From Isoetes taiwanensis (lineage: Eukaryota > Streptophyta > Lycopodiopsida > Isoetales > Isoetaceae), in NCBI GenBank assembly GCA_021234155.1, contig JAJEKV010000430.1:143206-207205 (forward strand): DNA of 64,000 bases, in the 5' to 3' direction. The notes beneath the pieces are model-generated. The model saw nothing but the letters and a program-made list of their open reading frames with translations. It was not told the origin of the DNA and made no database searches. Of the stretch, positions 7,151-33,745 are shown one piece after another. A program made the position numbers and the translations under genes. Position 1 is the stretch's first letter; each line of letters starts with the position of its first letter.

Positions 7151-8480
7151 GAATTTGGTTTTGTGTTCTTTGGGAGTTCCTTCGAAATAAGCAGGGAATA
7201 TAGAGATAGAGTATATAATAACAAAAACAGGACGGAAAAGAAACATGGTATAAAATAAAACTTGATCTTTGGCTTTGGACTTGCATATAGCATAAACCGA
7301 ACTATCAGCCTTATACTTTTTTCATTGCTCAAGTCCATTGCATGGGAATAATTCACAAACATTCAGCCGGGAACTTTATCTCTTCAAAATGCCTTTTAGC
7401 TTTGATTCTAAAGCATAAAACCACGAACACTTTTTTTGTCAAATAACTTGTTTAAGCAAGCAATGGTTTATGCGGCAACAACGATTGTAATGAATGTGGT
7501 AGCCGCAACTTTATAGAGGTAAAAGATAAAGCTCATAAAAAAGCTCGGCATGCATCTGGCATGGATAAATGTATGTTCCTTGCATGCGGCATGCAAGAAA
7601 TAAACATGAATATAGAGGTAGAGTATATAATAATAGCAAAAAGGAGAGAAAGCAAAAGGTGACAAAAACATGGAATAAATTAAAACGTGATGCTAGCTTT
7701 GGACTTGCATATAGCATCAATTGAACTATCGACCTTATGCTCTCTCATTGCTCAAGTCCATTGCAAGGGCATAATTCACAAACCTTCCAACCATTATGAT
7801 GGGAACTTTATCTCTTCATAAATGCCTTTTAGCTTTGATTCTAAAGCACAACCCTTTTGAACAATTTTTTTATATCGTCAAGCAATTTGCAATTTTTTAG
7901 AAAACAATGGTTTTTGCGGCAACATCGATTGTAATGAATGCGATAGAAAGCAACTTCATAGAGGTAGAAGATAGAAACTCATAATAGAAAGCTCGGCATG
8001 CATCGGCATGGATAAAGAGTATGTTCCTTGCATGCGGCATGCCATAAATAAATAGGAATAAAGAGATAGTAGATAATATTAACAAAATCAGGAGAGAAAC
8101 AAAAGCGAGAGAAACATGGAATAAATTAAACGTGATCTTTGGCTTGGACTTGTATATAGCATAAACCGAACTATCAACCGTATGTTCTTCCATTGCTCAA
8201 GTCCATTGCATGTGCATAATTCACAAACCTTTCACCCATTGCGATGGGGAACTTTATCTCTTCACTTATTTGCCTTTTTAGCTTTGATTCTAAAGCATAA
8301 CCCCGAACAACTTTTTATCTGTCAAACAAGCGCAATTTTTAAGCAAGCGATGGTTTGTACAACAACGATTGTAATGAATGTCAGTAGAAGCAACTTCCAC
8401 GAGGTAGAAGCTCATAATAGAAAAGCTGCATGCATTACGGCGTGGTCCCATCACAAGCAAAACTGAAGGTGGTATAGACA
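7140..8480. repeat. Three tandem ~430-bp repeat units
   Basis: The same series of blocks recurs three times with ~425-445-bp spacing. CTTTGGACTTGCATATAGC occurs near 7,270, 7,696 and, as a variant, 8,140. CAACGATTGTAATGAATG occurs near 7,480, 7,923 and 8,362. The TGTTCCTTGCATGCGGCATG block lies near 7,572 and 8,022. Short open frames on the minus strand with hydrophobic translations recur with the repeat and are probably not genes. Confidence 0.8.
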
Positions 8481-9774
8481 TTCCAACATCGGTATGAATT
8501 TGCTAACAATAAAAGCCTCAATTCTATCAAATAAACTTCCTTAAAACTATAAGAGAATTGAATAATAGACATGTCTTTATTTGCATTCAATTACATTCAA
8601 TAAATAGACATGTCTTCATTCAACTTGCCCTCTATCTTACGAAATTATACCTTGAGAATCCATATATAGAACTTAAAACAACAAAACTGCAATGAGCTTA
8701 TATTGGTTCATATCTGTTGATGAATGAAATACCGTGGTCGCTCATAGAAATCTAGACTCAATTTGCATTGGCTGAAACACCCATCAAAACTCTACAATAG
8801 TAGCGGAATCGATGTAGAATCGCATGAACATTCAATGGCATACATATTTAGATAAATGTATAAAGCAAAAGTTCTTTCCCCATAGAAATTTCAGCAAAAG
8901 ATGCTTCCAATAAAGATCACTGTGAGGAAGGAAAAAATGCATGATTCTTACTATTGCTGACAATATCCTCTCTTATCCATCCTCAAAGCCATGATGGTCA
9001 AAAGATCCGAGGAGAAGAGTCCACGGAGTCGATTTCGAGAGAAGAACGTCTTTTAGATGGCTGCTCAATGATGGAATTAAATTCCCATATTGTACAATTA
9101 GATGTGGTTATGATAGATAGCTTACAGCCCTGAGGTTATGAATATACTATCCACGGACATGGGAATCACGTACCATCATTCATCTCGACAAATCATAAAA
9201 AGCATGCCGCGTGACAATGACACCGGTGGCAATAGATGCTTGTGACATCGATAAAACATTCACGGTGAAATTATCAATCTCTACATTACAGAGTACCCCA
9301 TAGAATATATTACCAAATTAGGATCTGCAATTTTGACAAAAGCAAAAACAATCCCAATGATTATGCTTCACAATAATTATTCTTGCTACTGTCGGTTCAA
9401 AAAGGCTGTTGACGTACCTCTTCTTGATTAAGCGAGAAACAAAGGCATTGTTTGACATAAAAGGCTTAGGAGCAGATTTGGGGAGAGAGTCACGAAGATG
9501 TGTAATGCGGTTGGCGAATCTTGGAGGCGATCGAGAATATATACAACGAAAAACCCTACAACAAATTGACTCCACAACAAAATCCATTTAAAGAGCCTTC
9601 CAAGTGAAAGAATATAGATCCGAATGTAGATTCGAAGCCTAGGAAGAAAAAGTAGACGCATGCATCAAAAAAATCTTACTATGCATCTCTGTCTTCATCT
9701 CTTATGGATTTAGGCATAATAACTTCTGGCTAATGACCTGCTTTCCTTTTAATCAAATAAATCGTAAATCCAAA
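8481..9774. other. Non-coding, no gene recognised
   Basis: AT-rich sequence with no recognisable coding motif. The 89-residue minus-strand frame near 9,318-9,587 and its overlapping neighbours show no known family. Confidence 0.5.
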
Positions 9775-12696: not shown

Positions 12697-13515
12697 TGTG
12701 GCTCCTGCTAAGCGTCTGGCCCGTGCGTACACTCGTGAGAAATCCCCCATCGGCTCGACAGCGCATGGGCCCGCCGTCTACCTCACGAGGTGACTCTTAG
12801 TGGGGAATTCCTGAGGTGTCTTGGCGCCCCTTCCCCTATGGGCTCCTATAACGGCGGAGCGATAACACGTCGAACTAGCATCAACATATACAAATACTAC
12901 CTCGAAGGGTAGTGCATCACTCATAAACCAAGGCAAAAGATGATAATCACGAACCATAAAACATGAGAGCTCCTACCGGCTCGGACTCATAAGGAGGATG
13001 GACCCCCGGCTAGGCCTCAAGATAAGCGAGACCAGAGTCATGGCAATGGCGAGGGGCTGTATAGAACAATGGCTAGGGTTGACCACTCCATCCGCCCCTC
13101 TGTGCATACTGCGGATGGGCTAAATCGAGGGCTACGGCATGACTCTAGCCTTCCGGGATCACATAATCCCATGGCATCACCCATCGGGACTACTCCAGGT
13201 TGCATCTCCACAGTCCGATGAGGCGGGAAGGGTTGCATCTCCCTTCCGGGGGTCTAGAGGTGCCGTGGGCGGCTAGAGAATCGTGGCGACACGATTCGTG
13301 CCGGCCGAACCCCCAAAAGCGAGAGCCAAGCCAACACTTGCAGCTCTCGAGGCGTGGCAACACCATTGCCCCGGAGGTGTGGGACCCATGCCGGCCCACC
13401 GCAGTGACCCGACCATAAGCCTAGCCCACTATGGGATCCCCGAAGCCCCCACTTTCGCGGGGATCCTCCCTCCCTTCCCTCTAGCCCCGATTGTATGGTC
13501 TTTGAGTCACACAAC
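12697..13515 (-). mobile_element. Truncated LTR of the H3-bearing chromovirus family
   Basis: Aligns from its first base (TGTGGCTCCTGCTAAGCG) with the start of the complete LTR at 31,037 (TGTGACGCTCCTCGCTAAGCG in two parts). Long stretches match exactly, such as ACTAGCATCAACATATACAA and the following ~110 bp, through to CCCTCTAGCC. About half the LTR is present; the TATA-side half is absent. There is no primer site or internal domain beside it, so it is a solo or truncated LTR inserted into the gag of the + strand element. Confidence 0.85.
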
Positions 13516-14349: not shown

Positions 14350-15490
14350 ATAACGTGGCTCAAACATGCCACGTGGGCTCCAACATGCCACTTAGGTGCC
14401 AACATGCCAAGGTGGCTCAAGCATGCCACCTAGGCACCAACATGCCACCTAGGCTCAAACATGTCAAGGTGGCTCAAATATGCCTTGCGGGCTCCTATAT
14501 GCCACCTATAGGCTCCAACATGCCACGTGGGCTCCAACATGCCAAACTAGGCTCCAGCGTGCCTCAAACATGCCACCTAGGCCCCAACATGACACCTGGG
14601 CTCAAACATGCCAAGGTGGCTCAAACATGCCACGTGGGCTTCATGCCACCTAGGCTCCAACATGTCAGGGTGGCTCAAACATGCCATGTGGGCTCCAACA
14701 CTGCTAAGTCAGCTCAAGCATCTTTGCCTAGGCACCAACATGCCACCAAGGCTCAAACATGCCTGGGTGGCTCAAACATGCCATCATGGGTCCAACATGC
14801 CACCTATGCCAAGGTGGCTCAAACATACCACTAGGCTCCAACATGCCACCTAGGCTCAAACATGCCAAGGTGTATGCCACGCCGAGGTCCAACATGCTAA
14901 GGTGGCTCAAAATGCCACGGGGCTCCTACATGCCACCTAGGCTCCAACATGTCGAGGGTGGCTCAAACATGCCCGTGGGCTCCAACATACCACCTAGGCT
15001 CCAACATGCCACCTAGGCTCAAACATACCAAGGTGGCTCAAACATGCCAATGCGTGTTCCAACATGTCACCTAGGCTCCAACATACCAAGGTGGCTCCAA
15101 CATGCCACCCTAGGCTCCAAGCATGCTAAGGTGGCTCAAATATGCCAAGGTGGCCCAAACATGCCTTGGGATCCAACATGCCACCTAGGATCAACATGCC
15201 ACCTAGGATCCAACATGCCACCTAGGATCCAACATGCCAAGGTGGCTCAAATATGCCATGTGGGCTCCAACATACCACCTAGGCTCCAACATGTCAAGGT
15301 GGCTCAAACATGCCACCTAGCCTCCAACATGTCACCTAGGCTCAAACCGCCAAGGTGGCTCAAACATTCCATGGCGCTCCAACATGCCACCTAGGCTCCA
15401 ACATGCCAAGGTGGCTCAAACCTCTTGCGTGGGCTCCAACATAACATCTGAAGCTTAAACATGCCAAGGTGGCTCAAACATGCCAAGGTT
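14350..15490. repeat. 19-bp satellite array (AACATGCCA family)
   Basis: About 57 head-to-tail units alternate between AACATGCCACCTAGGCTCC and AACATGCCAAGGTGGCTCA types. GCCAAGGTGGC and GCCACCTAGGC are each internally near-palindromic. The 19-bp period is not a multiple of three; long open frames through it (14,295-14,834, 15,044-15,394) only reflect the repeat and should not be called genes. Confidence 0.95.
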
Positions 15491-19919: not shown

Positions 19920-21210
19920 TCTTCTTTATGAGAAACAATAGGCCTCAAGATGATCGGACAAAATCATGATACATGGTAGGGCGTTGTTTTTTTGGCTGGG
20001 GTTGACCATCCATCCGCCCCTCATGTGCATTTTCAAAGTGTTAGATAAGAACCGACAAGACTCTAGCCAGGTTGTTTTAATCCCAAATCACCATCGGGGA
20101 AACAACATGTTGCATCTCATTTTATTATGAACCAGGAAGGTTGCATCTCCCTTCAGGATCTAAATTGCGTTACATTTAAAAAGGAATATGGCGACACATA
20201 TAATTCCTACCATGTGAACCCCCAAAGCGAGAGCCAAGCCAACACTTGCGACTCTTTAAAAAAGGCTAAATGTAACACCATTGCCCTAAGGTGTCGGACC
20301 ATGTCATTCATTACGCAGTGACCGACCATAAGCCTAGCCCACTATGGTTTTTTGGAAGCCCCCCACTTTCGGGGATCCTGAAAAAACTTTCCCTCTGGAC
20401 CCGTTATATGGTGCTGGAGTGTCATATCATAGCCTCAATAGCCTGGTGGGCTCCTATGCGAGCCGCAACTAATAGGAACTAAGGGTTCTACTCTAGGAGC
20501 ATACTACATATGGCTCTGGGTCTCTACCCCCTTCCCAATACAAGAGGAGCAAACAAGATCAACCAACATCCATACTCATCACATCATGAGAATAATCATA
20601 AGAAGAACATCTTAACCTAATCATACAAATCTAACTAATAGTTAGGGTTCCTTGATTAGGGTTCAAGAAGTTCAATATGGGTTCTAGGATGGCTCTACTC
20701 TAGATACAAAATACTAGCATATCACGGAATGCTAATTTCCAGATGAGCTATCACAACTACTATCCTACATACCTGCTCTGAGCTCTCCCCCTCGAGATCA
20801 TTATTGCCTCCATGGTCACCGACTCACGAGATGCCACCTACTCCAAGAGCGTGTCACCGAGTCTATGCCACAACAAGCGATGTTGAAAGCGGGGTTGGAG
20901 CGGTTTTGGCGATAGGTGAGTCTCACAGGTGCTAGGGCTGGAAAGAGGTCTAGGGTTAGGGTTTATGCCTATATGAGTTAGGTCCACCTAGGATGCCGCG
21001 TGGTACCAATGGTGAGTCTGTGTGGCGGTGCCCCAATAGGTTAAGCCCCGTGGATAATGGCTTAACCTATGGTTGGCTAAGTTATGAGAATAACTTAGCC
21101 ATGCCCCTAGTGCCACAATCTATGGTATACAAGGCTATGAAGATAGACTTGTATGGTGGCCGGATCGAGGAATATCGTATTTATGGCGTATATTCCACGG
21201 GCCAATCACA
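19920..21210 (-). mobile_element. 3' LTR, outer end degraded
   Basis: Inner end is TGTGATTGGCCCGTGG on the minus strand at 21,210. From 20,466 to 20,760 it is nearly identical to 31,886-32,165. From 20,001 to 20,460 blocks of identity alternate with AT-rich replacements. From 19,920 to 20,000 only short anchors such as AGGCCTCAAGAT remain. The outer terminus expected near 19,615 is not recognisable. Confidence 0.8.
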
Positions 21211-22099: not shown

Positions 22100-22600
22100 A
22101 GCCCATCAAACTCCTTCATAAACTTCTGGGTATTGCTTCTCCAAGTCTTGCTTCAATACCCATGTCAGCGTCTTCCGCGGGTAAGTGCTTCCCTTAACCA
22201 AATATTGGAGGAATTGAGACCTCTAGTCTTCTTGAATGACTTATCAAGAAGCAATTCAGGCACTATTTCTACTTGCTCCTCCATCATTTCCAACAAAGGT
22301 TGGAGTATCCAAAACCTCCTCGGGGTTAGGATTGTGCCTTTTAATAAACTTACGTGGAAGACCTTGTGAACCTTGAGATGGGTTGGAAGATCCAACTTGT
22401 AGGCTTGAGAGCCCTCTCTCCAAAATCTTGAGCGGACCAGCCCACCTAGGGGCAAGCTTCTTGCAGCTCCCAATCGACTTGGCTTGCTTCACCTTTATCT
22501 TCAACCCGGGCTTATCGCCTACCTTGAATTCTCTTACGGTCACGGTAGTATGCGGCTACACTCTTCTGCCCGACTTCTTCGCCAATAAATAACCCTTACT
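22100..22600 (-). pseudogene. Integrase C-terminal region with chromodomain-like tail
   Basis: On the minus strand, REFKVGD, LKIKVKQAK and KKLAPRW-GPLKILER are followed, after a frame change, by SQAYKLDLPTHLKVHKVFH and VSLLK. This is the conserved GPF..HPVFHVSLLK block of Ty3/gypsy integrases. Then IVPELLLDKSFKKTRG and, after another frame change, a TWVLKQDLE-like end follow. That matches the chromodomain tail of the second copy (37,577-37,760). Chromodomains in these elements bind chromatin marks and steer integration. At least three frame changes. Confidence 0.85.
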
Positions 22601-22639: not shown

Positions 22640-23349
22640 GATACTTCTACCTTGGACGAGGATTGTGCGGTGTCAGGGGTTAAAGCAGCGGTGCCGTAAT
22701 TTACCATGAAAGGAGACATCGCGAGATGACAGCGGCAGCCTTTGTTGTAAAGCGAATTCCACCAAGTGGATGTACTCATCCCACTTGGGCGCTTATTCCA
22801 CACATAGTTCGAGCATGTCTTCAATGATCCGATTCGTCCTTCCGTGCGGCCCATCGTTTGGGGATGATATGCGTGCTCATGGAGAGCTTGATGCGAATGG
22901 TGCTGAAGAGGTCCTGCCAAAAGGCACTCATAAACTTGGAATCCCTATCGGATATTATCTCCGAGGCATGCCATGGAGTCTGAAAATCTCCCTTACAAAT
23001 AACTTGGCGATTATCTAATGCGATTGTCGATAGTCTTGCAAGGCACAAAATGTGCCATCTTAGATAACTTATCTCGACAACCATCAATGCATCCTTGCCT
23101 CGAAGAGTTCTAGGGAGACCTGTGATGAAATCCATGCTTATGACCTCCCACTTTGCATTTGGCACCCCAATGGCTCAAGAGCACACGGAATCGAAGTTGC
23201 TCCGCTTTGGTATGGCTGACATCTTGGCAATCCAGAATATATGCAGCTATCGCCTCTTCATTCTGGCGGAAGTAGCTACTTGAATCTTGAAAATAGGTCT
23301 TCATGAAGCCCGGCATGCCACCGCTATTGAATTTTGTTATGTGTGTCAT
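22640..23349 (-). pseudogene. Integrase zinc-binding and DDE core
   Basis: The zinc-binding part (23,349-23,190) contains GGMPGFMKTYFQDSSSYF and YILDCQDVSHTKAEQ. The last two-cysteine signature is reduced to one cysteine. The core starts PNAKWEVISMDFITGLP (about 23,162, first Asp), continues to SDRDSKFMSAFWQDLF (about 22,955, second Asp) and reaches YHPQTMGRTE (about 22,860, catalytic Glu). All three DDE residues are present, but in different frames. Confidence 0.85.
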
Positions 23350-23639
23350 GAAGAATTAGCTTCCTTACCCACGATGATTCGGGCACACACAACTTATGCT
23401 TGTGATACAACAGGTTGCCTTCCTTCTTATAATGCTTGAAGGCTTCCGGCTCCTTATCTGTTCGGCTTCCTTGGAAAGGCTTTCCCATACCTCCTTGAAG
23501 TCCACATCGTTGGCAGGACTCCTCAATCTTCTTGCCAAACTCACTTTCGAAAGAGTGGAAATCGCATTACAATCGTCCTTGTACGAAATGGTCTCACGGA
23601 GGGCATCTGCTACAACATTAAGCTTACGGACTTATATAA

Positions 23640-24022
23640 AATATCAAAATCATACTCCTCAAGAATTCCATCCACCTCCTTTGTCTTAAGTTGAGGGTGG
23701 CTGGGTGAAAAGATCTTGAAGGCTCGGTGATCGGTATCCAGCTGGAAACTTCCTTCCGGCCGGATAATGCCTCCATATCCTCAATGCCACGACAATGGCT
23801 AGCAGCTCCTGATCATGGGTTGGGTAGCGTTGCTCTGGCGTCGTTCATCTTCTTCGAGTCGTGGCGACTACCCTTCCTTCTTGCATCAAGGCCCTTTGTT
23901 GCTATCTTGCTTGCATCTGTTGCTACCAACTTATCTTTACTCGGATCCGGGAGAACAAGCACTGGTGCTGTTGTTAGAGCCTCTTTAAGCTTCTCAAAAA
24001 AGCTTGGACTTTCTCTAACCAA
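23640..24022 (-). pseudogene. Retroelement RNase H
   Basis: Contains VLVLPDPSKDKLVATDASK, with the first catalytic Asp, and a broken SKKMNDA block. After frame changes come a THDQELLAI-like Glu helix and a DTDH-like block. The order and spacing match the Ty3/gypsy RNase H; it lies directly after RT. Confidence 0.8.
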
Positions 24023-25046
24023 TGGCTAGTCAATCCTTAATCTTCTTGGCCTTAGTGAGGTCGGAGCAAGGGGGCGCCCGCCGCAAAAGTCCTTGGCGAA
24101 CTTTACGTAATATCCCGCCAGCAGAAAGCTTCTTACTTACGCCCACATTCCTTGGAGCTGGCCAATCAACTATTGCCTCAATCTTAGATGGATGCGTGGA
24201 GATTCCCTGGGATGTTACTACATGCCCCAAGTACTACTCCACTTTCGACATTTGCAAAGTGGCATAGAGAGCTTCCCATACAACCGATGGCGTCTCAACT
24301 TCTCCAACACTTTCACGAGATGCTGACAATGCTCCTCAAGGGACTTGCTGTAGATTAGAATGTCGTCGAAGAAGACAATAACAAACTCATCCAAGAAGTC
24401 TCACGAAGATGTCGTTCATGAGCGCATAAGCGTTGCTGGAGCATTCGATAGTCCAAAGGGCATTCTTGTAAACTCAAAATGACCATAGCGTTACGGCGGT
24501 CTTATGGATATCCTCTTCTTTTATTCTTATCGATGGTATCACGACCTCAAATCAATTTTAGAATACCTTTGCTCCTTGTGGCTGGTCCATTAGATCATCG
24601 CCCTTGGCAATGCATACTTGTTCTTTATCGATGCGCTTATTAAGCTGGCGATAGTCTATCACATTCTTAAGCTCCCATCTTTCTTCTTCACAAAGAGTAT
24701 AGGTGCTCAGAAGGAGACACACTTGCTCTTATAAATCAAGCTCGAGCAATTCTGAATTTTGTTTCTTGAGCTCAATCAATTCTAGGGTGCTCATTCTATA
24801 TGGCCTTCTTGGTAGGCTTGCCAGCATCCGGAGCCAATGTGATCTCACATTCCACACCCCTATAAGGTGGCGTTTGCTTGGGATTTCCTCCGGAAATACA
24901 TCCTTGAACTCTGAAATAAGCCTTGCTATGCACGGGCAACCGATTTCCCTTTGGGTCACTTCCATCCTGCTTGCACGGCTCAGCGATTCCATCCTCAAGA
25001 TGTAATCCACCTTATTCCTTTCTATACTCTTCCTTAGCTGCTTCAA
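24023..25046 (-). pseudogene. Ty3/gypsy reverse transcriptase
   Basis: Begins near FKDVFPEEIPSKR and PYRMSTLELIELKKQ (25,046-24,729). The finger motif FVKKKDGSLRMCIDYRQLNK falls around 24,700-24,630. The catalytic motif reads [12 protein letters not shown] at 24,385-24,351, with both Asp intact. The domain ends with a NVGVSKKLSAGG-like thumb, equivalent to NVSEVRSFLGLAGYYRKF in the second element. Several frameshifts and stops interrupt it. Confidence 0.9.
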
Positions 25047-25599
25047 AGAAATACACTTTGCATAGGAGAATCTAGCTTCTTACCTTTCACTATCAACTTG
25101 CCCGTGCGGTGCCGTCATGGTGACTTCATTCGGTGCCAATCAATCATGGCTTTGGTGGCTTCAAAAATTCCATCCCCACTATCGGATCATATCTTCCGAT
25201 GTCCATGACTTACGCTCCCATCCCCACTTAGCCCCACTAAGGTCTATGTCAAAGGTGATCCTCCTCCCCTTAGTGTGCGAATGGGCCGTTTGCCATAGCC
25301 TCTTGGCCTTGGCTTAGACTTCAATACCTTGTTCTTCATTAGAGCAGACCAATCTAGGGAGATGCAAAATTATGAGAGCTACGTATCTATGAGGACTACA
25401 TAAGGATTACTATCTATGATCCCATCGCCCGGCGATGGCGGTTAGTGATTCTCTATATCACTGTCTCAATGTTTGCACATATGTGGCACTCACCATCTAT
25501 GAAGTCACGGCAGCCCTCCTGGCGTTAGTGGGTAAGTCTAATTAAAACTACGTTGGGGAGTCCCAATCAAAGAGTTACGCCAAAATTTGCATGGCGAAT
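25047..25599 (-). other. Probable protease/linker region, not resolved
   Basis: Sits where the aspartic protease is expected, between gag and RT. A short frame near 25,200-25,140 reads DPIVGMEFLKPP-like sequence, suggesting the protease-RT linker. I could not find a convincing DTG/DSG active site. Confidence 0.35.
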
Positions 25600-26760
25600 G
25601 GACAATCATGTGTTGATTGCCTTTTGGCTGGAAGCACACGAAGCATAACTTTTTTCTCAATGCATTCACGTCTCTTTTCCTTGTTGTTGTCTAGGAGGCG
25701 GCTTGGCCTTACGATGCGATTACGTGGCTTACTACGGTCCCCAAAAGCTTTGTTCTGACCCTTACCTTCTTCTTGACTCCACGATGGTGTAGCGCTGGCG
25801 ATTATACCTAATATTGCCCACGATCTTTAGTGAACTCTTACCCCGAAGGTTGTTGTTTCTCTGGCTGGAGTTGCTGGTGCCTCTTTAAACTTAACTTTTA
25901 TCTTACGGCACATTACAGTGACTTGAGGTTGATTGCTCTAACAAGCCTCTTGATATTCTTTTCAACCCCTCAATGTAAGTATCCACGGCTTGCCTCTCAC
26001 GAGACTCGGGGAACATGCGACTGAGCCTCATAAATTCTTCGGTATATGCTTAGCCAGCGATAAGCTACCGATTCAACTGTGTAAAAGCTGGCGAATCGTC
26101 TACTAGTATGAGACCTTGGCACATAGTGTGCTGGGGAAAGCTTTGCGAAGGTCTTAAACCTACAATTGTTCCTCTTCGGCTTGTTGGACTTAGCATATCC
26201 CTTCCACCGGATCCTTGCGGTCCAATAAGGTTAGGCTGTAACAACTTTCCCCTATGTCCTTGTCTTTCATACCAGGTATGAGTTGCCAAATTCTTCCATT
26301 TCATCAAGCCATGCTTCAGCCTCCATGCGATCTGTCTTTCCACGAGGCGGCGGTAGAGCTTCCTTGTCTTCCATACATTGCTCATAGCACTATCCACCTT
26401 TTACGATAGTCATCGTCTTTCTTGCTCTTTTCCTTGCTTTTAGGTGTGCGGTATTTGTCGGACCCGGTTATCCTCTTGGAAGAGCTATCGATGAGCTGGA
26501 GCTAGATGGTGATGGACTCTGGTTCTCCTCTTCCTTCTCCTATCCACGGCGTTCCCACGGTTGCCCTCCCCTTCTGGCGAGGGACTTCGTCACCACACGG
26601 AAAACAAGGTGGAGGTGGAGGACCATCTTCACGTGCATTCATAAGAGGTGTAAGCCCGGTTGATGAGGTGTTGCATCACGGTTCCTCATCGCACCAACCT
26701 TGCGTTGGCCTGCCTCACGGTGACATATCACGCTCAAAAGTCTTCGTTCTCGCCAAACAA
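25600..26760 (-). pseudogene. gag with retrotransposon-gag domain and zinc knuckle
   Basis: Minus-strand frames show a serine-rich linker near 26,480, an EAEAWLDEMEEF-like block near 26,310, and EEFMRLSRMFPESRERQAV then DTYIEGLKR around 26,045-25,950. The last is the typical F.rL.rmfPe...a..YieGL of the gag capsid domain. A cysteine pair CFVC near 25,645, with His and a later DC in another frame, is a degenerate C-x2-C-x4-H-x4-C nucleic-acid-binding knuckle. Confidence 0.7.
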
Positions 26761-28151: not shown

Positions 28152-29391
28152 GTGGCGCTAAGTCTAAGGGCTGAGCAGGGGTTCCCCTACTTTGTTGATT
28201 GACCTATAGTGCATGAAGAGGGCAAAAGTCGCATGCAGTGAAAAGGTACCTATGCCTATTATGTGCCGGGTCATGTGTAATCGGGCATGGTCCTAGTCCT
28301 ATCCCATAGCTGCTTCTTGCCTTTGGATCCTGCCAACTCTAAAGACCTAAGGCTTGGGTAAGTGTCTCAAGGGAAACCCAATTCCTCCCCTAGGAGGCGA
28401 TCCTAACTTCCCAAAGGCGGGGACCTGGCTGGTCATATTGGCACATAATGTCGTGTAGTAGGGTGTTCTAGTCAAAGTTGCGTGAAGATCAAACAAGTGA
28501 TCAAAAACATTGAGAAGGCTTGATCTCTTGGAAGCTGATGGATATGGCTGGCAGCATTGTACCATCTCTCAAAAGTTCTTTGAAGCCATTGAGCGGAAAG
28601 GGTGTAGAAAATGGCTTGCAAAGATGGAGTGGAGGATCAGAAAATCGCCCTAAAGGGCTGAAGGGAGCAGTTAAAGGAAAAAAAAAATGGCAAAATGGGG
28701 CCTATTTTTATAGACTATGGGTGACCTGGGGTTCGTGCAAAAGGTACCTACCTAAGACGACCTTGGTTCTATGGCTCGGTGTCCAAATGAACTACCATGA
28801 AGTGCAAACTTAAAGCAAAACAAAGCAAGAAATACTACATGGCAATTTGTTGGATCAAATTTGGCTAATTTGGGCCAAAGATGGGCTGACCAGGTGAATC
28901 AGCTGGCGGATGGCCTCAGCGTCCCTTGGGCATGGACGCAAAGCGTTTAAGCTTGGTCTCACCCGGTTGGCTTTGTTTTGGGCCAATTTTTGGTCATTTC
29001 TGGGAATTTAAAGATGCTAATATGGCTAATTGGGCCAATTCTAACCTAACTAGCAACTTATTTTGAGCAAAACTGACATCTAGAAGCTTGATTTTGGGCC
29101 CAGTCGGGTGAATCCGCGCGAAACACGCCTGCGTCGGGAACGCAGAGGCCCTAAGGCGGTGGTCTCACCGGTTGGCCCGATTTTTCAGCATTTTAGATGA
29201 TTTTTTTGCCAAAATTTTGTTGTAGTCATGATTTCTAGGGTGTTTCTAGACATGCTATGAAGAATTCTACCACAATTGGGTTCTATTTCCTATATTTCAA
29301 GCATACAACATTTTTTCTAATTATAGAGGGAAAATAACTTTTATATTAATAAGAAACATAGTTACATGAAAATTTAGCTTTCTTACAAAAT
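28152..29391 (-). other. Spacer after the H3-like ORF with imperfect ~210-bp duplication
   Basis: The block GGTGAATC...GTCTCACC-GGTTGG...GATTTT-GG recurs at about 28,890-28,995 and 29,104-29,200 with much divergence. The rest is AT-rich. The part next to the ORF (29,200-29,390) looks like a 3' untranslated region. No gene recognised. Confidence 0.5.
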
Positions 29392-30484
29392 TTACAAAAT
29401 TTGAGGGCCTAAGGCCTCTCTCTCTGCAATCCTTCGTGCTAAGTGAATATCCTTGGGCATAAAGGGTAACTCTCTTAGCATGGATAGTATGAGAGGTTCC
29501 CTTCCTCGAAGAGCTGGACCAGCTCTGCTGAAGCCTCTTGCGAGCGGGTCATTAGAGGGTAACCCTATAATCGGTCGGAGCTGCTACAAAACCTCTCTAA
29601 GGAGGCTCGAAGGAGCCTTCCTTATCGGAGATGCGTGCACATCACGGAAGTGCGAATCTCCCTAAACACCGGGTGTATGTGCTATTCGCCCGTGGTGAAC
29701 CCTCTTGGGTTTTCGGTCTCGGTGGGGTGGCTTGGGCTGGTTCTTCTTCCCCCGCCGCCCCACCGCGGCAACTGGCGCACCTCTGGCGGCAATACCACTC
29801 ATTGTACCTCGTCCAACGACGAAGGTACTCCTTGTATGCCACCATCTTCCGCTTAAACTTCGGTCTCTTTGGAGCTTGAATGCCTCCCCTACCTTTTGCT
29901 TCTTCACCACCTTAGGTGGTTCCGCCATTTAGGGTAGGGTGGCTAGCGTTGGGTCCCCCTCGCTCTTCTTCCTCCCTCGTCTCAGGTAAGCCCTTTGTTG
30001 GTGCTCCTCCTCCGTGCGGGCCTCTTCTATAAGCGGCCAGTCCGGGGAGGCGTCGTTCCTCCTCTTGGTCAGCCTCTCCTGCTCCCTCAGCTCCCTCTCC
30101 AGCTCAGCTTCTTCTGGCTGACCCCTCTCCTCACGGCCACTCTTTGACTTTTTCCTTCCCCTTCTTTTTTTTGAAGGGCCCGGCCGTCGATCACGGTGGT
30201 GGTGCTGCTCTTCCACCTGTTCTTCAACCTGTTCCTCCACCTCGGTGTCAGGGGCCAGTGTGAGACTCATCGTTCTCTGTGTGCCTCCCAGATGGTGGCG
30301 CTCTTTGGGGCTCTCCTCGGCATCATGATGCGTTATCGCCCCGGCTGCTGCTGCTGGGGGAAGCTCCTCTTCCCCTTTCTTGGGTGGGAGGTGCTCAGGG
30401 GATCTTCTTCACATGTAGCCCCTGCTAGCCATGGAAGGGGTAGGTCTTGGTCGAGCTTCTGTAGGTTTGTTTGGTGCGTGCCAT
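29392..30484 (-). pseudogene. Histone H3/CENH3-like ORF with very long N-terminal tail
   Basis: Histone H3 packages DNA in nucleosomes; CENH3 variants mark centromeres. Minus strand from ATG at 30,484 reads MARTKQTYRSSTKTYP, the canonical H3 start with the K4 context intact. A long insert of about 240 residues follows (30,432-29,700): EVEEQVEEQVEEQ, then KKRRGRKKSKSGREERG and a Glu/Arg-rich coiled-coil-like stretch, then GKKNQPKPPHRDRKPKR. The H3 fold then appears in pieces: HTPGV and REIR (alpha-N, about 29,675-29,650), IRKAP and LLREV (alpha-1, 29,626-29,590), QEASAELVQLFEEGNL (alpha-2, about 29,540-29,491), IHAKRVTL (29,485-29,462) and MPKDIHLARRIAERE (29,460-29,416). The stop is TAA at 29,392. 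Most of it is in one frame; in-frame stops near 30,409, 29,931, 29,664 and 29,585 and short compensating frameshifts break it. H3 identity is firm; CENH3 is only suggested by the long divergent tail. Confidence 0.85.
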
Positions 30485-31022: not shown

Positions 31023-31034
31023 GCTCTGATACCA
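31023..31034 (-). promoter_or_regulatory. Primer-binding site, initiator-Met tRNA
   Basis: Minus strand TGGTATCAGAGC, the exact complement of the 3' end of plant initiator methionine tRNA. It starts two bases inside the 5' LTR end at 31,037. It sets the element's orientation and shows that the 31,037-32,643 copy is the 5' LTR. Confidence 0.95.
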
Positions 31035-31036
31035 TT

Positions 31037-32643
31037 TGTGACGCTCCTCGCTAAGCGTCACGGTACGCCGTACACTTTCGGCAGAAATCCCCATCGGCTC
31101 GGCAACCGCGATGGGCCCTTCGTCTACCCGCTTTCGACGGGTGACTCTTAGTGTGGGAAGGGGACTGAAGGTGTCTTGCGGCGCCCTTCCCTATGGGCTC
31201 CTATAGGCAGGCGATAACCACGTCGAGAACTAGCATCAACATATACAAATACTACCTCGAAGGGTAGTGCATCACTCATAAACCAAGGCAAAGATGATAA
31301 TCACGAACCATAAAACATGAGAGCTCCTACCCGGCTCGGACTTCGTGGGAGGATGGTAGAGGCTAGGCCTCAAGATAGAAGCATCGAGTCATGGCAATGG
31401 CGAGGCTGGCATAGAACAATGGCTAGGGTTGACCACTCCATCCGCCCCTCCCGTGCATACTTTGCAAATGGGCTAGATCAGGCTCGACAAGACTCTAGCC
31501 TTCCGGATCGCAATCCCATGGCATCACCCATCTGGGACTACTCAGTTGCATCTCCCCGGAAGGGTTGCATCTCCCCTTCCGGGATCTAGAGGTGCCGTGG
31601 GCGGCTAGAGAATCGTGGCGACACACGCATTCGTACCAGTGAACCCCCAAAGCGAGCCAAGCCAACACTTGCAGCTCTCGAGGTGTGGCAACACCATTGC
31701 CCGGGGAGGTGTCGGACCCATGCTGGAAGCCCACCGCAGTGACCCGACCATAAGCCTAGCCCACTATGGGATCCCCGAAGCCCCCCACTCGGCGGGGATC
31801 CTCCCTCCACTTTCCCTCTAGCCTGTTATATGGTGCTGAGTCATATCATAGCCTCAATAGCCTGGTGGGCTCCTATGCACAGAGCCGCAACTAATAGGAA
31901 CTAAAGGGGTCTACTCTAGGAGCATACTACATATGGCTCTAGGTCTCTACCCCTTCCCAATACAAGAGGAGCAAACAAGATCAACCAACATCCATACTCA
32001 TCACATCATGAGAATAATCATAAGAAGAACATCTTAACCTAATCATACAAATCTAACTAATAGTTAGGGTTCCTTGATTAGGGTTCAAGAAGTTCAATAT
32101 GGGTTCTAGGATGGCTCTACTCTAGATACAAAATACTAGCATATCACGGAATGCTAATTTCGGATGAGCTATCACAACTACTATCCTACATACACGCTCT
32201 GAAGCTCTCCCTCCGGATCCGTGTGCCTCCATGGTCTCGACTCACGAGATGCCGCTCCTACTCCAAGAGCGAGTCTACCTGGCTTTGGGGCTCTTTTGAT
32301 CTATGCCTGACAAGCGATGTTGAAATGGGGTTTCGAACGAGTAGGTGAGTCTCTGGGTGCTAGGGCTAGAAAGAGGTCTAGGGTTAGGGTTTATGCCTAT
32401 ATGAGTTAGGTCCACCTAGGATGCCACGTGGTACCAATCGGGTGAGTCCTGTGTGGCGGTGCCCCAATAGGTTAAGGCCACGTGGATAATGGCTTAACCT
32501 ATGGTTGGCTAAGTTATGAGAATAACTTAGCCATGCCCCCTAGTGCCACAATCTATGGTATACAAGGCTATGAAGATAGACTTGTATGGTGACGGATCCA
32601 GGAATATACGTATTTATGGCGTATATTCCCCTGGACCGTCACA
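31037..32643 (-). mobile_element. Complete 5' LTR (1,607 bp)
   Basis: Bounded by TGTGACGCTCC at 31,037 and GGACCGTCACA at 32,643, giving a 6-bp inverted TGTGAC/GTCACA end. Its inner edge abuts the primer site. Homologous copies lie at 19,920-21,210 and 12,697-13,515. Confidence 0.95.
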
Positions 32644-32924: not shown

Positions 32925-33745
32925 AACTTCAACATGCCACCTAGGCTTCAACATGCCACCTAGGCTAAAACATGCCAAGGTGGCTCAAACATGCCACCTA
33001 GGCTCCAACATACCACCTACGCTCAAACATGCCAAGCTGGCTCAAACATGCCACATGGGCTCCAACATGCCACCTAGGCTCCAACATGCCAAGGTGGCTC
33101 AAACATGCCATGTCGGCTCCAAGATGCCACCTAGGCTCCATCATGTCAAGGTGGCTCAAACATGGCAAGGTGGTCAAACATGCCACGTGGTTCAACATGC
33201 CACCTAGGCTCCAACATGCAAGGTGGCTCCAACATGCCACCTATGCTCAAATATGCCAAGGTGGGTCAAACATGCCGCAGCGAGGGCTCCAACATGCCAC
33301 CTAGGCTCAAACATGCCAAGGTGGCTCACAACATGCCACCCGGGGCTCCAACATGCCAAGTTGGCTCCAACATGCCACCTAGGCTCAAACATGCCAAGGT
33401 GGCTAAAACATGCCAAGGTGGCTCAAACATGGCAAGATGGCTCAAACATGCCACGTGGCTCCAACATGCCACCTAGGCTCCAACATGCAAGGTGGCCCAA
33501 GCATGCCACTTAGGCTCCAATATGCCACCTAGGATAAAACATGCCAAGGTGGCTGAAACATACCACGCGGGCTCCAACATGCCAAGGTGGCTCAAACATG
33601 CCATCTAGGCTCCAACATGCCACCTAGGCTCCAGCGTGCCACCTAGGCTTCAACATGCGAAGGTGGCTCAAACATGCCATACGGGCTCCAACATGCCACC
33701 TAGGTTTCAACATGGCAAAGTGGCTCAAACATGCCACGCGGGCTA
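32925..33745. repeat. 19-bp satellite array, second block
   Basis: Same alternating AACATGCCACCTAGGCTCC / AACATGCCAAGGTGGCTCA units as at 14,350-15,490, about 42 copies, same orientation. Open frames across it (32,908-33,513 and others) are repeat artefacts. Confidence 0.95.

Follow-up and report, generated by a model that had tools for sequence, protein, structure and literature searches.

A histone H3 core behind a long extension in Ty3/gypsy chromoviruses of Isoetes taiwanensis

Does a plant retrotransposon carry a histone of its own? The question is raised by a stretch of 64,000 nucleotides from Isoetes taiwanensis (contig JAJEKV010000430.1, positions 143,206 to 207,205), here called the window and numbered from its first letter. 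Positions 29392-30484 had been read, from the letters alone, as a histone H3-like gene inside a Ty3/gypsy chromovirus, with a single open reading frame (ORF) that starts MARTKQT and contains IHAKRVTL. The original prediction considered that an H3 or CENH3 variant could aid chromatin or centromere targeting or package the cDNA, and named accidental capture of a host histone gene as the plain alternative. Here we report that the H3 content at this place is real, yet the single ORF was pieced together from a copy that is broken; intact relatives elsewhere in the genome encode an H3 core at the end of their first ORF (ORF1).

The H3 signal was assessed by frameshift-tolerant alignment to canonical H3, and the controls were 126 tiles over both strands of the window and 20 mononucleotide shuffles of the region. 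Against the score of 116 on the minus strand, the shuffles reached at most 48; the best non-overlapping tile, which contains the tail tip, scored 47 and the next 45. The tiles disclosed no second H3 in the window on either strand. The core pieces, joined with X, matched solved H3 chains at E of about 1e-12. The start, MARTKQTYRSST, is identical to the first 12 residues of H3 at 10 of 12 positions, and the best N-terminal match in eight Markov-resampled 64-kb windows was 6-7. These results, together with the 351 genomic MARTKQTY sites described below, rule out chance similarity, and H3-derived sequence does lie, as had been claimed, on the coding strand of the element between its primer-binding site and gag.

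The reading frame of this copy is broken. In a three-frame reading of the minus strand, translation from the ATG at 30484 yields MARTKQTYRSSTKTYPFHG before it meets a stop, the stretch from 30408 to 29929 is open in a frame other than that of the ATG, and the H3-like pieces then come in several frames: REIR, IRKAP..LLREVL, QEASAELVQLFEEGNL, IHAKRVTL and MPKDIHLARRI do not share one frame and are separated by stops. A Pfam search with five single-frame pieces of the window copy returned no histone match. An intact ORF at 29392-30484 is ruled out by these frame changes and stops and by the missing single-frame match; the MARTKQT start and the histone core residues of the original prediction are real sequence, and its single ORF is not.

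The surrounding element is an old and decayed Ty3/gypsy chromovirus insertion and a member of a family that we call D (Table 1). Its LTR stretches at 31420-32643 and 19993-21210 are 82.9% identical, and the 5' LTR matches LTR stretches of three loci from elsewhere in the genome (L026, L016 and L025) at 68-77%. The primer-binding site, which we take to be of the initiator tRNA-Met type, lies 550 nt upstream of the ATG at 30484. The highly charged insert between tail tip and core has HLxPKKGEEELPP, GTQRT, TDTEVEE and similar motifs in common, by eye, with loci L060, L061 and L064. The region of L025 that the integrase relic resembles (8151-8561) matches the chromodomain profile PF00385 at E 3.8e-6 and 27.1 bits (cut-off 25.1).

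Table 1. Features of the family D element in the window (positions from the first letter of the window)
Feature	Positions	Strand	Evidence
5' LTR (extent as supported by matches)	31043..32643	-	LTR-LTR matches
Primer-binding site TGGTATCAGAGC	31023..31034	-	exact match
H3 tail tip, start of ORF1, MARTKQTYRSST	30449..30484	-	MARTKQTY
159-codon open stretch, highly charged, corresponding to the long insert of family D H3	29929..30408	-	lies between tail tip and core
H3 core, alpha-N to alpha-3, with frameshifts and stops	29415..29747	-	alignment score 116 against canonical H3
Possible relic of a second orphan ORF (ORF2a), weak	28389..28626	-	score 60, without shuffle control
gag relic (capsid part)	25883..26397	-	pieces 39-57% identical to L026 gag
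Protease relic	25150..25423	-	pieces 30-65% identical to L026 protease
Reverse transcriptase-RNase H-integrase relic	22721..24818	-	33-51% identical to L012 pol, a figure depressed by frameshifts
Integrase C-terminus with chromodomain, relic	22142..22525	-	43% identical to L025 8151-8561
3' LTR, truncated	19993..21210	-	82.9% match to 5' LTR

Other members of family D were located through the tail tip, since the host H3 starts MARTKQTA and family D MARTKQTY. In 1,658,258,908 bases (1110 contigs) the MARTKQTY codon pattern occurs at 351 sites, 191 on one strand and 160 on the other, and the reversed-pattern control at none. The ATG of the window is among the matches listed, and at least 28 codon spellings were counted by eye among 100 matches listed. 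Six of these loci were read over 1.6 kb each, selected for differing spellings regardless of H3. As in the window, an H3 core (scores 190-300) follows downstream in every one, at a distance of about 770-1140 nt. All six read MARTKQTYRK, which keeps H3 tail positions 1-6, 8 and 9, including K4 and K9, so that in family D the tip ARTKQTYRK sits about 260 residues ahead of the core. In locus L061 a single frame stays open for 362 codons, starting at MARTKQTY and extending across the H3 core, whereas the frame is interrupted in the other five. L061 matches PF00125 at E 6.7e-29, and its nearest solved chains are canonical H3 (E 5.4e-29, 104.9 bits); its core is identical to host H3 at 54 of 89 positions, about 61%. 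The window core is identical to that of L061 at 67 of 95 positions (score 197, 6 frameshifts). L061 keeps R69, R72, R83 and CAIHAKRVT.MPKD; K56 and K79 are lost in family D. The evidence for gag-pol downstream of the family D H3 comes from the window copy.

Intact relatives with a different N-terminus came from a genome search with PF00125, in which 150 of 8705 first-look candidates were scored; other histones may be among these, and first-look totals, here and below, do not equal copy numbers. The first 15 scored matches span model positions 2-122, and the eight with loci given are canonical host H3. Twenty loci were taken from the remaining 135, mostly by their long open frame, and all 20 have a frame of 367-494 codons (stop to stop) with an H3 core at its end. 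Their N-termini are of three types, which define families A (MPRFKLTVDLKK-like, 12 loci, L019 being cut at its start), B (METPKQVYKRKPR-like, 6 loci) and C (MANTKSAPDP, 2 loci); MARTK occurs in none of the 20 frames. ORF1 in these families consists of an orphan domain of about 200 aa (the N-domain), a linker and a full H3 core, the extension ahead of the core being 240-350 residues long. With one member per family, PF00125 was matched at E 3.2e-42 (A), 2.6e-38 (B) and 2.6e-41 (C); in four intact copies representing A to D the match reached 101-144 bits (cut-off 26.4). The profile search that the original prediction had proposed is thus positive in intact relatives and negative for the single-frame pieces of the window.

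The loci of families A-C are organized as retroelements. The primer-binding site was found upstream of ORF1 in 15 of the 20 (14 exact, one with one mismatch), 494-676 nt from the ORF1 frame in 13 of the 15, 776 nt in L027 and 913 nt in L019. All four A-C elements tested have LTR pairs, with identities, assigned to loci by order of output, of 89.7% (L012), 95.7% (L013), 90.6% (L015) and 96.1% (L026). Downstream of ORF1, Pfam profiles for capsid/gag, protease, reverse transcriptase, RNase H, the integrase zinc domain and the chromodomain were matched over their cut-offs, and the integrase core (rve) fell just below (31.3-32.1 bits against 32.6); the order gag-protease-reverse transcriptase-RNase H-integrase is observed. 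Across the 20 loci, query loci included, ORF2a was found downstream in 19, capsid in 16, reverse transcriptase-RNase H-integrase in 14 and a chromodomain in 4, counts limited by the extent fetched, since the sequence retrieved for L011 runs the wrong way and the chromodomain lies beyond the end of many loci. An extra 5' module of about 4 kb, from primer site to gag, is present in A-C. A nested stand-alone histone gene is ruled out, because A-C and the window have the ORF in corresponding positions, after the primer site and before ORF2/gag. That an H3 gene lies inside a Ty3/gypsy chromovirus therefore holds for many copies, at the same place.

Two further coding pieces lie between the H3 ORF and gag: ORF2a, of about 470 aa (..GEHWDPAVPFDLL..; L016:3484-4488, L027:5034-6500 on the minus strand, L021:3575-5020), and ORF2b (..ETLEEYEDRITD..). 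No Pfam profile passed its cut-off for the N-terminal parts of A-C or for the ORF2 pieces of L026. Protein searches with the H3 core in the query were swamped by ordinary H3 fusions. Relatives of the N-domain were sought among 5.8 billion proteins (243-773 aa), where none of 934 candidates was confirmed at E up to 1, and in viral contigs, where none of 24 pattern matches was confirmed. Profiles compared with solved structures and with Pfam gave unconvincing best E values of 0.15 and 2.9 for the N-domain and 0.036 and 0.12 for ORF2a, and these two showed no likeness to one another.

Which part of this module is fixed was examined in copies that had not been picked for H3. At 12 loci anchored on gag (from 150 scored of 14,380 first-look matches), 1.8 kb was read at the expected place, and a core was present in 8 (scores 310-445) and absent in 4 (27-37). 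At ten loci anchored on the N-domain (from 150 scored of 2793 first-look matches), a core followed in 9 (279-433), its end missing in L051, and was absent in one (28). Many of these unpicked copies contain frameshifts or stops. It had been stated beforehand that other copies lacking the ORF would count against the claim; this is true of a minority, four of the 12 gag-anchored loci having no H3 in the stretch read, and the majority carry the core. The genome-wide family search accordingly gives an H3 core at a like place in many copies and some copies without it.

Selection was estimated by Nei-Gojobori dN/dS, given as medians of pairs within families. For the 20 A-C loci, whose picking by histone score and frame length biases dN low, the medians in families A, B and C were 0.04 (66 pairs), 0.01 (15) and 0.01 (1) for the H3 core, 0.11 (37 usable of 66 pairs), 0.15 and 0.09 for the N-domain, and 0.19, 0.12 and 0.17 for the linker. 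For the unpicked set, which comprises the 17 of 22 loci with a core and includes decayed copies, the core median was 0.135 (64 usable of 136 pairs, 3 of the 64 at 0.5 or above). In family D, represented by the six fetched loci and the window, it was about 0.15 (range 0.04-0.64; 12 usable of 21 pairs). For pairs that cross families or set element against host, dS is mostly saturated. The expectation that dN/dS across copies would be below 1 was borne out, most values being far below 1. When the DNA of A, B and C elements was compared, one pair per combination, LTR/leader, H3 core and ORF2b-gag-pol aligned at 72-87%, with 72-73% for the H3 core and 72-87% for the segment that begins near 5.2 kb and includes gag-pol, whereas the N-domain and ORF2a gave no DNA alignment. 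It follows that the core is retained, whereas the parts around it drift or are swapped.

Conservation of the core was also read residue by residue. Invariant in the 20 A-C copies are R69, R72, R83, C110, H113, K115, R116, T118, K122, D123, L126 and I130, among which are residues that contact DNA or form the H3-H3' interface in the nucleosome. K56 and K79 are also invariant in A-C, and R49 and R63 are each replaced in one of the 20.

The A-C cores are 81.6-88.8% identical to host H3 and have changes in common, namely T107A (20 of 20), K36R (19), V89I (18) and I124L (17). The nearest solved chains to family A are H3.3 (7ux9) and H3.1 (8kcb), tied at 177.3 bits. In a tree with reference cores entered by hand, a 99/97 branch separates the 20 A-C cores from cellular H3 (the bootstrap had not settled). 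Adding three D cores and two hand-entered CENH3 cores, neither of them the host's own, leaves A-C with a support of only 69/80; the D cores then form their own long branch (100/99), and the two CENH3 cores split off from all others (96/92). A CENH3 origin, entertained in the original prediction, is not supported by these placements, nor by the solved chains, which are H3.3/H3.1 for A and canonical H3 for D; family D, moreover, has the H3 tail tip, which is not expected of a CENH3. The tree that had been called for thus sets A-C and D apart from CENH3, but because A-C support falls from 99/97 to 69/80 once D is added, one capture is not shown; H3 may have been captured either once or twice. A recent, single-copy, host-identical capture is ruled out by the copy number, by the divergence from the host in at least four families (81.6-88.8% identity in A-C, about 61% in D) and by dN/dS; accidental transduction of a host gene, with few copies identical to the host and under no selection, has a different signature.

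Several known systems bear on these elements. Canonical H3 has about 136 aa, with a tail of about 37 residues joined to the core; neither A-C nor D has this layout, the element H3 differing from cellular H3 by its 240-350-residue extension and, in A-C, by T107A, K36R, V89I and I124L. The elements are like plant Ty3/gypsy chromoviruses in their LTRs, primer site of the tRNA-Met type, gag-protease-reverse transcriptase-RNase H-integrase order and chromodomain, and unlike them in that A-C have about 4 kb of extra 5' module and a first ORF that ends in an H3 core. Plant LTR elements with additional ORFs (PMC7264820; the orchid demethylase Gypsy, PMC9289625) likewise have a non-gag-pol domain, apparently from a cellular gene, fixed in many copies. 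Such ORFs are more often between pol and the 3' LTR (PMC7264820, in whose main text the word 'histone' occurs 0 times), whereas the Isoetes ORF is the first and encodes a histone.

Mobile elements with an H3-like gene in many copies are described from fungi. The hAT element of Pyrenophora tritici-repentis has one, with N-terminal tail insertions in all 26 copies, which are nearly identical and recent and for which ESTs exist (PMC3538342); in Pseudocercospora fijiensis and related fungi the H3 copies in hAT elements are inactivated by RIP (PMC6710886). These are cut-and-paste DNA transposons, unlike the Isoetes Ty3/gypsy elements with their several diverged families and constrained core. Among viruses, the H4 of bracoviruses, which has an extended tail and, according to the review cited, enters host nucleosomes, and other single viral histones, H3 included, have in common with the Isoetes ORF a high identity to the host histone fold, but their carriers are DNA viruses or derivatives (PMC9145170). 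Orf1 of the nudiviruses HzNV-1/2 resembles it in its long orphan N-terminal part and C-terminal histone folds, and differs in being an H4-H3-like doublet at 30-40% identity, the Isoetes protein having a single H3 (PMC9145170). The terms 'retrotranspos' and 'retrovirus' occur 0 times in the text of this review, and 'histone' 0 times in the main text of the I. taiwanensis (PMC8566536) and I. sinensis (PMC10541799) genome papers. In the result listings and abstract starts of full-text searches of open-licence PMC papers, no retroelement-encoded histone was found. The claim that no known LTR retrotransposon encodes a histone fits this literature, and its bearing on mobile elements at large is narrowed by the fungal hAT transposons with H3. 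Histones in DNA viruses and in fungal hAT DNA transposons are therefore known, and what appears to be new is a retroelement with its own constrained H3.

The simplest reason for the constraint would be a partnership of the core with H4, DNA and chaperones, which points to incorporation into nucleosomes. We suggest, at about even chances, that ORF1 supplies an H3 core behind a long element-specific extension and that the protein forms nucleosomes with host H4 on the DNA of the element itself, acting there as an H3 variant whose tail is enlarged or replaced. Pairing of the core with H4 and host chaperones is suggested by the kept DNA-contact and H3-H3' interface residues; the extension would bring an element or host partner to the element's chromatin. 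The loss of K56 and K79 and a core only about 61% identical to host H3 speak against incorporation in family D. In the least certain step, the replaced tail of A-C would keep the usual silencing marks off the element H3. A general escape from K9 methylation finds no support, given that K4 and K9 are retained in the tip of family D and that ARKSG or PRKSG precedes the core in some A-C copies. The kept tip of D also rules out that the H3 of these elements is tail-less throughout; evading K9/K27 marks is conceivable in A-C only, and unlikely even there. The fuller proposition, that a chromovirus lineage made a captured H3 its own nucleosomal variant, placed a domain in or for the tail, and so writes its own chromatin, with A-C also evading silencing marks, we hold tentatively, at somewhat short of even chances. 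If the protein does enter nucleosomes, the tip-keeping and tip-replacing families would be a natural experiment on the H3 tail and would test for an effect of elements on silencing that is exerted by way of the histone. Because the genome of the plant is apparently public and the family numerous in it, tests of expression, localisation and chromatin are direct.

Other uses of an H3 core have to be weighed against this nucleosomal role. The core might only dock the ORF1 protein in host nucleosomes while the extension holds Gag, integrase or cDNA and so steers integration; in D the chromodomain of the element itself could bind the retained tail tip. The integrase does carry a chromodomain (L025, and the relic in the window), the core is the conserved part and the extension differs by family, and D keeps ARTKQTYRK, but these facts fit a nucleosomal variant equally. 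As nothing ties the extension to Gag or integrase and the A-type N-domain is without relatives in the searches, we regard such docking as unlikely, though not far-fetched. A protein that stays outside nucleosomes, binds H3 chaperones or tail readers and writers and thereby starves host silencing would account for the kept core surface, for the tail tip that D presents on a long extension, and for the alteration in A-C of positions 87 and 89, which we take to lie near the stretch by which chaperones tell H3.1 from H3.3. The DNA-contact residues, needless for a decoy, are kept as well, and this reading is quite improbable.

Still less probable is that the ORF1 protein, within the particle or the pre-integration complex, compacts cDNA or plays the part of a nucleocapsid. 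Its basic charge would suit that task (in L012, L010 and L026, +10 to +14 in the last 100 linker residues and +8 to +10 in the core), but the task has no need of host-H4, chaperone and H3-H3' surfaces kept at dN/dS 0.01-0.04, and Gag already has a knuckle in the L016 translation, presumably of the CCHC type. Finally, the captured host H3 gene might be a functionless passenger, the case reported for some fungal hAT transposons, whose H3 copies can be inactive (PMC6710886); the window copy is indeed broken and some copies are without a core. Against this stand at least four families, open frames, a MARTKQTY spelled in many ways, and dN/dS mostly well below 1 in unpicked copies, which largely refute it, and we consider it highly improbable. 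The nucleosomal reading thus remains the one that we prefer.

Several minor observations were made along the way. The N-domains of L012, L010 and L026 are 34-36% identical, yet gag-pol and LTR/leader DNA of these elements align at 72-87%. Exchange of the 5' module between elements, or an evolution much faster than that of the rest, seems to be the reason. In L026 a large internal deletion at about 7658-7668 fuses protease to integrase in one frame, and reverse transcriptase is gone; the H3 ORF is intact. L026 and L027 have ..VARKSGSQYK.. ahead of the core, and its ARKSG, which resembles the H3K9 region, might serve as a target for the chromodomain that the element encodes; not every A-C copy keeps the lysine. 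In the window, 31043-31823 is 83.4% identical to 12701-13486, an LTR-like stretch that is possibly a solo or truncated LTR. The same gag-pol lineage as that of the element has left two more relics, at 38569-37613 and 48418-47353, one of them with pieces 70-85% identical to L012 pol. Minisatellite arrays at 14352-15489 and 32927-33744, one of them just past the 5' LTR, are related to one another by many mutual matches.
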